This document shows, piece by piece, positions 46,682-50,717 of a stretch of 54,097 nucleotides of DNA. The notes below the pieces were generated by a model. That model was not told where the DNA came from. It ran no database searches and worked only from the letters and a program-made list of their open reading frames with translations. The DNA lies in the NCBI GenBank assembly GCA_002790095.1, contig PFUL01000113.1, forward strand, positions 1 through 54,097. Direction: 5' to 3'. This stretch comes from Elusimicrobia bacterium CG_4_9_14_3_um_filter_62_55. Lineage in GTDB: Bacteria > Elusimicrobiota > Elusimicrobia > UBA1565. Position 1 is the first letter of the stretch, and each line of letters begins with the position of its first letter. The position numbers were made by a program, and so were the translations under genes.

Positions 46682-46715
46682 AGGCTTTGCGGCTCACGCC
46701 GCATTGCCTTTTTGC
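46682..46715 (+). terminator. Rho-independent terminator-like hairpin
   Basis: AGGC..TGCGGC pairs with GCCGCA..GCCT around a TCAC loop (two T-T mismatches inside), followed by TTTTT and TTTT. It overlaps the DUF3800 stop codon. Oriented to stop plus-strand transcription from the consensus promoter immediately upstream. Confidence 0.6.
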
Positions 46716-47617
46716 TTTTCCCTCTTGCTGCGAAGATCATAAACCACGTAAATCCCTTCAGATTTTGCCTCTCCGATTCTTGAATCAATCCTCAAAGATT
46801 GGAGTTTTTCAACATATGGAGCCAACTCTTTTCTAGCCCTCGGAACCAACGGCTTTCGGTCGAATTCGTGGCCCCAACTCAGTATGTAGGCCGCCAAATC
46901 TGCGACCTGAATTCCGACCGTCAGGTCACTGTGAACAAAAAGAGGTTCCGGAACTAGACGCTCGGACCGGTCCCTACCCGTTTTGAAATCCTGATAATAG
47001 GATTGCATCTGGCCAAGAAGAATGTGGCTTGCAGATTTATCGAGTTCATAGAAGACTATGATTCCCATGTGTTCCCGCGGCTTCGAGTCGACAAAATAGA
47101 AAAACCGTTCGAATAGATAGGCATAGTCTTTCCGGAGAACCGTGATTTTGCGATCCCCCGGGGCGTCTACCGGAACCAGAATCCCAAGAAACTGCCCCTT
47201 AAAACTACTGGCCAAATCGAGAACCGCGTCGACATAAGCCAGTTTCGCCTGCGCAAGGGCGGAAATCGATTCCCGCGTTCCCATCGATCCATTCCGAAGA
47301 GTGAACTCAGCAAGTTTTTTCCGCTCGGCCGGTTCGAAGCGCTTGCACCACGAGGCCTTTTTGAAAACACGGGGATTTAGGAATTTGTCCCCTTTGATTT
47401 CCTTCAAGTCAATCTGATCTCTTTCTGTCTTTTTGAGTGCGCGCCGTTCTGCATTAAGAACAGGGTATGCAACGCCGAAAATGGCCTCCTGTAATTGGAA
47501 TACCGCCTGGATAAACGGCCACAAGGCACCATCCCGAATCGCAAAACCTCCGAGCACTTCCGCGGGCGCCAACTTCCTGTCATGGCCGCTTTCATCGACG
47601 AAAAGAAAATAAGACAT
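46694..47617 (-). CDS. DUF3800 domain protein
   Basis: A 307-residue protein of the DUF3800 family. It has the characteristic opening MSYFLFVDESGHDRK (acidic residue of a putative RNase H-like active site), a central IKGDKFLNPRVFKKA region and a late LTVGIQVADLAAYILSWGHE carrying the conserved QVADLxAY motif. DUF3800 proteins are frequent in mobile and defence islands; their function is mostly unknown. The start ATG is 6 nt after TAGAAT. AT-richer than its neighbours. Confidence 0.85.
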   Translation of the reverse strand: MSYFLFVDESGHDRKLAPAEVLGGFAIRDGALWPFIQAVFQLQEAIFGVAYPVLNAERRALKKTERDQIDLKEIKGDKFLNPRVFKKASWCKRFEPAERKKLAEFTLRNGSMGTRESISALAQAKLAYVDAVLDLASSFKGQFLGILVPVDAPGDRKITVLRKDYAYLFERFFYFVDSKPREHMGIIVFYELDKSASHILLGQMQSYYQDFKTGRDRSERLVPEPLFVHSDLTVGIQVADLAAYILSWGHEFDRKPLVPRARKELAPYVEKLQSLRIDSRIGEAKSEGIYVVYDLRSKREKQKGNAA

Positions 47618-47623
47618 TGTTCG

Positions 47624-47629
47624 ATTCTA
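47624..47629 (-). promoter_or_regulatory. -10 box of leaderless-type promoter (DUF3800 gene)
   Basis: TAGAAT on the minus strand ends 6 nt before ATG 47617. No Shine-Dalgarno. Confidence 0.55.
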
Positions 47630-47724
47630 CACTAGTAATGCAACTCAGATGCAGCCTAATACGCTCAATTTACAATCCAACAAATCAACGCGCCGGACGC
47701 CCGAATCGCCCGAACGCTTCGATT

Positions 47725-47742
47725 CCGTCACAATCCCGTCAC
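47725..47742 (+). promoter_or_regulatory. Pho-box-like direct repeat upstream of ppk1
   Basis: CCGTCAC-aatc-CCGTCAC: two identical 7-bp repeats separated by 4 bp, giving the 11-bp periodicity of PhoB sites (E. coli repeat CTGTCAT). It ends 32 bp before the -10 box TATGCT, where PhoB replaces a -35. It is embedded in an inverted repeat CGATTCCGT / ACGGAATCG. Control of a polyphosphate kinase gene by phosphate starvation fits; binding is inferred. Confidence 0.6.
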
Positions 47743-47774
47743 GGAATCGTTGCCTCCAGTCCCCATGGGAATCG

Positions 47775-47780
47775 TATGCT
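47775..47780 (+). promoter_or_regulatory. -10 box of leaderless-type promoter (ppk1)
   Basis: TATGCT ends 6 nt (AGGAGC) before GTG 47787. AGGAG could also serve as a Shine-Dalgarno but touches the start codon. Confidence 0.5.
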
Positions 47781-47786
47781 AGGAGC

Positions 47787-49937
47787 GTGGAAGACTCGAA
47801 ACCGGCCTCCAAGGAGAAGTGGATCACGCTCTCGCAGCACCTATCCGGCAAGGTGCAGCCGGCGGTCCCCGGCGAGAAGGCGTCGCTGCTGACCGAGCGC
47901 TTCTACAACCGCGATCTATCCTGGCTTCAGTTCAACGAACGGGTTCTCCACGAGGCGGCCGACGCCTCCGTCCCCGCGCTGGAGCGCCTTCGCTTCGCGA
48001 CGATCGTCAGCTCGAACTTGGATGAATTCTTCATGGTCCGAGTGGCCTCCGTGCGCCGCGATGCCGACCGGCCCAAGCACGCGAACTATCCCGACGGGCT
48101 CGATCCCCGGCACCTGCTCGCGCAGATCCGCGAGCAGGTACTGCGCCAGAAATCGCGCCAGTATCACGCCTTGCGCGGGGTTCTCGACGCCTTGAAGAAA
48201 AGCGGAATCATCATCCAGACGGATTTCCCACCGGACCCCGCCCTCGACAAGGTCATGCGCGCCAAGCTCGGTGAGGCGCCGTTTGTGTTGAACCGTTCCG
48301 ACGAGGAGCCGCCGCGCCTGGCGGCCCAGCGCACCTACGTCTACATCCGTTTCCCGCGCGAATACGCAATCGTCGACGTCGGCGACCGCAGCCAGCGGCT
48401 CGTCGAATTGCCCAGCGAGCCGGGCACGGTCCGCTACGGCCTGGCCGGACGCTGGGTGGCCGCGCGCGCGGCCGCGCTGTTTCCCAAGCGCGACTTGATC
48501 GAAGCCTTCCCGTTCAAGGTGCTGCGCGACGCCGAAATCGGCCTCGATCCGCAGGAAGAGGAATCGCTGAAAGAACAGGTGATGGCGGGGCTCGTCAAAC
48601 GCCCGAAACACGCCCGGGTGATCCGTTTAGAAGTCGACTCGCAGTCCTACTCGGAGGGCGCGCTTCTTCTCGCGACCCAACTCGGGGTCGACTCCGCGTC
48701 CCTCTACCGCTTCGATCTGCCCCTCGATCTGAAGGTGCTTTCGGGAATCTACGATCTGGAGGGGCGCGACCGGCTGCGCTATCCGGCCGTGAAGCCGTAC
48801 TTGCCCCCGTTTTTGCGCCGCGCGGACCTGTTCGCGACGATGAAGAAAGGAGACGTTTTGCTGCACCATCCATACGACTCGTTCGACATCGTCGTCGAGT
48901 TTCTCGCGCAGGCCGCCCGAGACCCGCAGGTGACGAAGATATTCCATGCGCTTTACCGCACGAGTCAGGCCTCCCCGATCATCGAGGCGCTCAAAAGCGC
49001 GGCCCAGTCGGGGAAAAAGGTCACCGCCTACGTGGAGATCCGCGCTCGTTTCGATGAGGAAGCCAACATGAAGTGGGCCGAGGAACTCCGCGCGGCCGGC
49101 GTTCGCGTCGTCGAACCGATCGGGCGATACAAGGTCCACTCGAAGATCACCCGGGTCGTGCGCGAGGAACCGGGAGGATCCCGGGTCTTCTTGCACCTGG
49201 GCACGGGCAACTATCACCCGGGGACGGCGCGCCAGTACACGGATGTGGGGCTCTTGACCGCCGACGCGGCGATCGGAGAGGAGACGGCCGCCTACTACCG
49301 CGCGCTCAAGCGCGGCGAAAAACCACCGGAGACGAAAGAACTGCTGATCGCGCCGGGAAACCTGCACGAACGCTTCGAAGCGCTCATCAAAAACGAAACG
49401 AAGGTCGCGCGCGCGGGCGGCCGGGGACGCATCATCGCCAAGATGAACTCGCTGGTCGACCCGGACATCATCGAGGCGCTCTACGAGGCCTCGAAGGCGG
49501 GGGTCAAAATCGAGTTGATGGTCCGGGGCATTTGCTGCCTGCGTCCGGGCATCACCGGCCTCTCCGAGAACATCCGGGTCGTCAGCGTCGTCGACCGTTT
49601 CCTCGAGCACAGCCGCATCTACTATTTCCGAAACGGGGACAACGGCAAGTCGCGGCTGTACCTTTCAAGCGCGGATTGGATGCCGCGGAACTTCTACACG
49701 CGTTTTGAAATCGCGTTCCCGGTGAAAGACCCGCAGTTGATGCGCTTTATCCGGGACGTGATCCTGAAGACGAGCTTCAACGACAATCAGAAGGCCTGGA
49801 AGCTGGGCGCGGACGGGAAATACGTGAAGATCTCAGCGAAGCCGGACGAACCGAAACGACGTTCCCAGGACTACTTCCAACAGCTCGCCCGCCGGCATTA
49901 CCGCGGGACGCCGCTCGAGAAGCGATTCGCCGACTGA
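47787..49937 (+). CDS. ppk1: Polyphosphate kinase 1
   Basis: A 716-residue PPK1 that reversibly polymerises ATP gamma-phosphate into polyphosphate. The N-terminal domain is RFYNRDLSWLQFNERVLHEA and LDEFFMVRVASVRR. The catalytic domains carry HHPYDSFDIVVEFL, YRTSQASPIIEAL, EIRARFDEEANMKWAEEL, the autophosphorylated-His region IGRYKVHSKITRV, THLGTGNYH-type sequence and LYLSSADWMPRNFYTRFEI. GTG 47787 is preferred as start because of the -10 box directly before it; an ATG at 47649 would precede the Pho-box-like element. It converges tail-to-tail with a CYTH/VTC-type gene. Confidence 0.95.
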   Translation: MEDSKPASKEKWITLSQHLSGKVQPAVPGEKASLLTERFYNRDLSWLQFNERVLHEAADASVPALERLRFATIVSSNLDEFFMVRVASVRRDADRPKHANYPDGLDPRHLLAQIREQVLRQKSRQYHALRGVLDALKKSGIIIQTDFPPDPALDKVMRAKLGEAPFVLNRSDEEPPRLAAQRTYVYIRFPREYAIVDVGDRSQRLVELPSEPGTVRYGLAGRWVAARAAALFPKRDLIEAFPFKVLRDAEIGLDPQEEESLKEQVMAGLVKRPKHARVIRLEVDSQSYSEGALLLATQLGVDSASLYRFDLPLDLKVLSGIYDLEGRDRLRYPAVKPYLPPFLRRADLFATMKKGDVLLHHPYDSFDIVVEFLAQAARDPQVTKIFHALYRTSQASPIIEALKSAAQSGKKVTAYVEIRARFDEEANMKWAEELRAAGVRVVEPIGRYKVHSKITRVVREEPGGSRVFLHLGTGNYHPGTARQYTDVGLLTADAAIGEETAAYYRALKRGEKPPETKELLIAPGNLHERFEALIKNETKVARAGGRGRIIAKMNSLVDPDIIEALYEASKAGVKIELMVRGICCLRPGITGLSENIRVVSVVDRFLEHSRIYYFRNGDNGKSRLYLSSADWMPRNFYTRFEIAFPVKDPQLMRFIRDVILKTSFNDNQKAWKLGADGKYVKISAKPDEPKRRSQDYFQQLARRHYRGTPLEKRFAD

Positions 49938-50717
49938 CTACTTTCCGATAAAGAACGAGCCGCAGCGGTGGTACTTGTCGAACCGCTCGTGGCGGAGTTC
50001 GAAACGCCGGACCAGCTTCGCGTCAAAACGCATCAGCGCGTCGAGGTGGCGCAGCTTGCGGCTGATGCTCCCCTCGGGAGCCTTGATCTCGTTTTCGTAC
50101 TCGCAGAACGAGGAGAGCGGGTGCAGCCCGGTCTTGCTGATGTGAAAGGTGAAAACGCGGTCGAGCGAGGGTTCGAGGCAGGCCTCCCCCAAATCGACGA
50201 GGAACTTGTCCTTTTGATAGACGCAGAGGATCGGGCCCTGGCCGACGGCGCGCATCGTCCGCTCGCCGAGGTGGCGGCGCATCGCCGCGGCCATCGGCAC
50301 CGGCAGCGCCTCGCGGAACAACTGCTGAATCGTCTCCATATTGAACTGCACGATGTCGTGATGGCTTTCTTCCAGAACCAACCGCTTGAGCCGTTTCGTC
50401 GAGAACTCCGAACGGTACAGCAAACCGTTGCGGTGGAATCCGGGGCCCTTATACTGCAGGTAGACGCGCGATCCGTTCCCTTTATAGCGCAGGCGCAGAC
50501 TCGCTCCCTTTCTGAACAGGGACATGCGCTTCGTATCGAGGAATTGATCGAAAAAGGTGACCGACTTCTGGTGCTTGACGCCGCGCCGGCCCGTCAACCA
50601 CCGCTTGAGTTCCTGCGCCCGCTCGGGGACGACGCGGCGTTTCGCCTCGATCTCGATGAAGCGGGGATCGTCGATGCCCAGGCGCTTGCAAATTCGAAAC
50701 GCCTCGGGAGAAGCCAC
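49938..50717 (-). CDS. CYTH/VTC-type triphosphate tunnel protein
   Basis: A 259-residue protein with the CYTH signature ExExK (FIEIEAKRRVV). Alternating charged beta strands follow (SLRLRYKGNGSRVYLQYKG, LLYRSEFSTKRLKRLVLEE, KDKFLVDLGEACLEPSLDR, CEYENEIKAPEG), the pattern of a triphosphate tunnel. This fold includes inorganic triphosphatases, CyaB-type enzymes and the VTC polyphosphate polymerase catalytic domain. Its stop lies directly at the ppk1 stop in convergent orientation, suggesting polyphosphate metabolism. Start GTG 50717, 5 bp after the hydrolase-like gene. The exact activity is open. Confidence 0.78.
   Translation of the reverse strand: MASPEAFRICKRLGIDDPRFIEIEAKRRVVPERAQELKRWLTGRRGVKHQKSVTFFDQFLDTKRMSLFRKGASLRLRYKGNGSRVYLQYKGPGFHRNGLLYRSEFSTKRLKRLVLEESHHDIVQFNMETIQQLFREALPVPMAAAMRRHLGERTMRAVGQGPILCVYQKDKFLVDLGEACLEPSLDRVFTFHISKTGLHPLSSFCEYENEIKAPEGSISRKLRHLDALMRFDAKLVRRFELRHERFDKYHRCGSFFIGK

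Follow-up and report, generated by a model that had tools for sequence, protein, structure and literature searches.

The systems closest to the element analysed here are the Pho promoters of Escherichia coli and Streptomyces. As described in a section of one review, a PHO box consists of two 11-nucleotide units, on which PhoB dimers oligomerise hierarchically (PMC4415409); according to an excerpt of another, promoters served by PhoB have no canonical -35 element, for which contact between PhoB and sigma4 compensates (PMC4496699). In E. coli K-12, TATTTT of the pstS promoter follows a perfect box at a distance of 32 bp, and weaker boxes of the same lattice lie at 43, 21 and 10 bp; at phoA the distance from box to TATAGT is 10 bp, and downstream of the phoB box no TANNNT turned up. 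In Streptomyces, according to part of a further review, PHO boxes have been shown upstream of ppk, and at pitH2 of S. coelicolor the conserved units are bound first, less conserved neighbours filling as PhoP rises (PMC7866108). The first of these reviews also states, in the section concerned, that in most bacteria Ppk is induced within the Pho response so that phosphate can be stored (PMC4415409). As far as these portions of the two reviews go (PMC7866108, PMC4415409), Pho control of ppk is already known. What is new here is the little-studied phylum; the variant geometry discussed below is unproven. A literature search for Elusimicrobi with Pho regulon or polyphosphate kinase found nothing on the subject, judged by title.

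The window, a stretch of 54,097 nucleotides, is contig C179 of a 4.31-Mb genome (G000) that is 95% complete. Between a divergent DUF3800 gene and ppk1 it carries a Pho-box-like direct repeat, CCGTCAC-AATC-CCGTCAC (47725-47742; Table 1). The two identical CCGTCAC repeats with their 4-bp spacer are present exactly as a first-pass annotation of this DNA had stated, and they agree with the definition of a Pho box as two 11-nucleotide direct repeat units with conserved 7-nucleotide cores. The annotation had also placed a -10 box at a suitable distance, and this holds as well: TATGCT begins 32 bp beyond the repeat, the distance seen at E. coli pstS. Matches to a -35 element are poor, with one or two of six positions at spacers of 15-18 bp and a best case of four of six (TTGCCT) at 19 bp. 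A -10 hexamer without a canonical -35, combined with a box in E. coli-like register, fits a PhoB-dependent sigma70 promoter. The encoded PPK1 is 55-59% identical to the three best named records, all of them Elusimicrobia MAGs, in keeping with the placement of the genome in Elusimicrobiota. In many family f2 relatives, homologues of the convergent CYTH-domain gene are found on one stretch with ppk1; the function of this gene is possibly linked to polyphosphate.

Table 1. Features of the ppk1 promoter region and related loci (window coordinates unless a contig or locus is named).
Feature	Position	Strand	Remarks
Pho-box-like direct repeat, two CCGTCAC half-sites, 11-bp period	47725-47731 + 47736-47742	+	AATC spacer 47732-47735
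Probably incidental 9-bp inverted repeat that overlaps the box	arms CGATTCCGT 47720-47728 / ACGGAATCG 47741-47749	.	chance frequency
Two proximal lattice slots, degenerate	TCGTTGC 47747-47753; AGTCCCC 47758-47764	+	proposed cooperative PhoB sites
-10-like hexamer TATGCT	47775-47780	+	32 bp past box end; 6 nt before GTG 47787
ppk1, polyphosphate kinase 1	47787..49937	+	likely GTG start; Pfam PP_kinase domains; TIGR03705 697 bits, cut-off 465.85
DUF3800 gene	46694-47617	-	divergent from ppk1
CYTH-domain gene (Pfam PF01928)	49938-50717	-	convergent with ppk1
MFS-DUF2252/APH fusion gene overlapping phytase-like gene	L017:13215-17154 = C85:27215-31154	-	own Pho box; start 31154
ppk1 boxes in relatives	G002, G007 (exact); G005, G025, G048, G050 (one mismatch)		

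The same arrangement recurs elsewhere in the genome. At four promoters, GTCA cores 11 bp apart are followed by 32 bp, a TANNNT hexamer, 6 nucleotides and an ATG or GTG, and these promoters serve ppk1, phoB-phoR, pstC and the MFS-DUF2252/phytase-like pair. The phoB box comprises three half-sites (TAGTCAC GAAA GCGTCAT GAAA TCGTCAT); the pstC box reads TCGTCAT AAAA CCGTCAA. On contig C85 the genes follow one another as a PhoB-type regulator (ATG 14958), a PhoR-type kinase, a porin, pstS, pstC, a pstA-type permease, pstB and phoU, a PhoB/PhoR-type pair thus being linked to pst. Similar repeats before other phosphate genes, which the first-pass annotation had named as the check on its proposal, are therefore present upstream of both pstC and phoB, with equal spacing and in the same genome as the ppk1 site; by eye, none is seen in G000 between phoR and the porin gene or directly before pstS. 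Like boxes at equal spacing before other phosphate genes support the annotation's reading of the ppk1 element, which is very probably a Pho box, that is, two head-to-tail sites for a PhoB-type response regulator. They also suggest that MFS-DUF2252, an uncharacterised gene, is a phosphate-starvation gene.

Which regulator would act at ppk1? The C85 response regulator scores 230.3 bits with the NCBIfam PhoB model (cut-off 296.2) and the kinase 399.6 bits with the PnpS model (cut-off 400). The genome has 16 OmpR/PhoB-type DNA-binding domains, that of the C85 regulator included. Choosing among them by identity to the DNA-binding domain of E. coli PhoB was tried and rejected: the C85 regulator has 28 of 76 positions identical, and two others have 29 and 30 of 74. 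From the linkage to phoR-pst and from the box of phoB itself, we infer that the regulator of the ppk1 box is the C85 PhoB.

Genome-wide searches point to the same small group of promoters. With up to two mismatches, CCGTCACN4CCGTCAC matches 29 times in the 4.31-Mb genome: once exactly, in the window, once with a single mismatch (C85:31199-31216, on the pstB-bearing contig) and 27 times with two. The seven exact matches to CGTCAN6CGTCA are the four promoters of shared layout and three sites inside long open frames. Exact matches to GTCAN7GTCAN33TANNNTN6RTG occur only at the ppk1, phoB, pstC and MFS-DUF2252 promoters; the order's other 55 genomes contain no match, nor does any of the 56 contain the reversed pattern. 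This count is partly circular in that the pattern was drawn from the very promoters recovered. Less circular support comes from the two preceding searches and from the relatives. Mismatch-tolerant counts for the 32/6 pattern (6 matches; reversed control, 5) lie below simple expectation, and exact matches alone are relied on.

The sample of relatives consists of 42 stretches (665,009 bp in total), most of them selected for their phoB or ppk1. These contain 38 exact boxes, 35 of which precede phoB, pstC, pstS, porin, DUF47, ppk1 or MFS-DUF2252 genes (the DUF47 assignment was made by Pfam in two copies). The other three lie in L197, in L198 and, as one of its boxes, in L199; L197 and L198 were included because a pattern search had already found their boxes. 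The two similar 184-aa genes concerned in G018 (L197:3952 and L198:4641) have a Pho-box promoter with 21-bp spacing and a 6-nucleotide start gap, and a Pfam search of both returned no family. A DUF47 gene preceded by a Pho box, the box being near phoB or divergent from it, occurs in nine loci (L194, L196, L199, L200, L201, L204, L205, L208 and L224).

When the box, with at most one mismatch, was combined with TANNNT, 5-8 nucleotides, RTG and an open reading frame, 25 pairs were found, against none in reversed sequence and 0-2 in five shuffles. Rearranging the letters of CGTCA gives 59 other anagrams: two of them, both register shifts, reach 25 and 19, and none of the other 57 exceeds 3. Gaps between box and TANNNT cluster at 21-22, 32-34 and 43-45 bp, with outliers at 7, 15, 28 and 58. 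Among 21 promoters (one row each), phase is concentrated at period 11 to a degree attained in 1 of 20,000 random sets; these are related sequences and not independent, and for a set of 14, collapsed by hand on our own judgement, the figure is 447 of 20,000. Within the tested range of 10-12, the period that fits best is 12.0, at the edge, and 11 is not singled out.

Upstream of ppk1 itself, a box with at most one mismatch lies within 300 bp in 6 of 29 relatives, as against 9 of 580 random 300-bp stretches of the same loci; in the other 23 relatives the 300 bp before the ppk1 match contain none. By eye, the gaps to the next TANNNT are 11 bp in G007, 12 in G050, 22 in G002 and G005, and 32 in G025 and G048. 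The G048 box (L201:12378) is readable on both strands and also faces, with 22-bp spacing, a divergent 505-aa gene, the start of whose product may be RecQ-like. A hand count, in which the ppk1 of G031 is a fragment, covers the 41 genomes that have both ppk1 and a phoB homologue: in 18 of them the two genes share a contig and are no more than 10 kb apart. All 18 belong to family f2, and in a large part of this family ppk1 is thus a member of the phosphate neighbourhood. The MFS part of the MFS-DUF2252 protein and, in most loci checked, its C-terminal part are seen as separate tblastn stretches beside ppk1 (L199, L200, L207, L208, L215). A wider pattern gave 19 matches in 15 of 198 genomes of the phylum, against 16 reversed-control matches in 15. 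Within the order (17 genomes) the count is 11 against 0, and in the 181 genomes outside it 8 against 16, no better than noise; for this reason the box signal is established for this order only.

Might the direct repeat be a product of chance, with no regulatory role? Bare repeats of this kind are common enough: perfect 7-mers repeated at 11 bp begin at 8 positions in the window, against 1-8 in ten Markov resamples, and the 23 relatives whose ppk1 has no close box also speak for chance. Yet the same sequence and geometry stand at three other phosphate-gene promoters, with no further exact match in the 56 genomes, and boxes upstream of ppk1 in relatives exceed those in random stretches; we consider a chance origin very unlikely. 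Even less likely, in our judgement, is that the 9-bp inverted repeat serves another regulator as a palindromic operator. The first-pass annotation was right that this repeat exists and overlaps the box, but the window contains 13 perfect 9-bp inverted repeats (loops of 3-20), against 3-13 in Markov resamples, which is chance level, and by eye the repeat is not seen at the other three promoters. On these two grounds an operator role was rejected. Both the bare repeat and the inverted repeat are at chance rates in the window; it is sequence plus context that carries weight.

The position of the start codon also matters, because with a start at ATG 47649, from which the ppk1 frame is open, the box would fall inside the coding sequence and would not be a promoter element. 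Of the readings considered, this is the least probable. TATGCT-N6-GTG matches a start signal of the genome, TANNNT standing exactly 6 nucleotides before an in-frame ATG or GTG 9 times over 58 long G000 ORFs and 0-2 times at each other distance; over 253 ORFs in f2 and f3 relatives the corresponding numbers are 31 and 1-8, and over 82 ORFs in f1 relatives there are 2, with no peak. The control motif for these counts, TNNNAT, overlaps TANNAT and also peaks. In G006, moreover, a GTG lies 9 nucleotides after TAAAAT, and by eye the N-terminus resembles that from GTG 47787. The 6-nucleotide gap between the -10 and the start codon suggests that the ppk1 mRNA is leaderless, and it probably starts at or beside GTG 47787. 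The divergent DUF3800 gene also has, by eye, TAGAAT-N6-ATG on its own strand (window 47594-47640, minus), like the leaderless signal. A further alternative, unlikely but more probable than these three, is that PhoB needs no more than the distal box and acts, for example, via the C-terminal domain of the alpha subunit, with the proximal slots unfilled, or that another OmpR/PhoB-type regulator uses the site. Degenerate proximal slots with a slight in-register excess are compatible with the former, and the number of OmpR/PhoB-type domains in the genome with the latter. Against this alternative stand the box that precedes the pst operon and phoB itself on C85, and E. coli pstS, with its further lattice boxes between the 32-bp box and the -10 hexamer.

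Overall, the best reading of the sequence is a PhoB-activated, -35-less and probably leaderless ppk1 promoter, which we regard as highly likely. At low phosphate, the PhoB encoded together with pst on C85 would be phosphorylated by PhoR and would occupy the consensus box. Because a distance of 32 bp probably puts this box out of reach of sigma4, we propose that a further PhoB dimer fills the degenerate slots down to 47764 and so presents a surface for sigma domain 4, a step modelled on the ancillary units at S. coelicolor pitH2 as a portion of PMC7866108 describes them. RNA polymerase would thereby be recruited to a promoter that has the -10 TATGCT and no good -35, transcription would begin at or next to GTG 47787 to give a leaderless ppk1 mRNA, and polyphosphate synthesis would rise along with phosphate uptake. 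Filling of the proximal slots is weakly supported by core matching, which is highest in register among 13 offsets: 1.95 of 5 over 19 promoters, against 1.64 or less, and 2.12 of 5 over the four G000 promoters, against 2.00 or less.

A broader model is possible, although we hold it to be doubtful. This Elusimicrobiota lineage may use a variant class of Pho promoter, leaderless and -35-less, in which a strong PhoB box lies one to three steps of about 11 bp upstream of the place adjacent to the -10 and PhoB spreads in phase over degenerate slots. The distance of the box could then set the phosphate threshold of each gene, and the regulon would include a new module, MFS plus DUF2252/kinase-like, that in relatives lies beside polyphosphate kinase. 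Whatever the fate of that model, these data provide a concrete candidate Pho regulon for Elusimicrobiota.

In relation to known systems, the gene differs from the Pho-regulated ppk of other bacteria in that it belongs to a different phylum and its control is predicted here from sequence. The box resembles the Streptomyces PHO boxes of ppk and pitH2 in its 11-nucleotide direct repeat units; the core there is GTTCACC, as given in a section of PMC4415409, compared with CCGTCAC here, the one footprinted and the other inferred. Unlike E. coli pstS, where a proximal box can be recognised and the mRNA has a leader, ppk1 has degenerate proximal slots and a start codon 6 nucleotides after the -10. Like pstS, it combines a 7-4-7 direct repeat and GTCA cores with a consensus box 32 bp before TANNNT, which suggests that the spacing from Pho box to -10 is common to E. 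coli pstS and a distant phylum.
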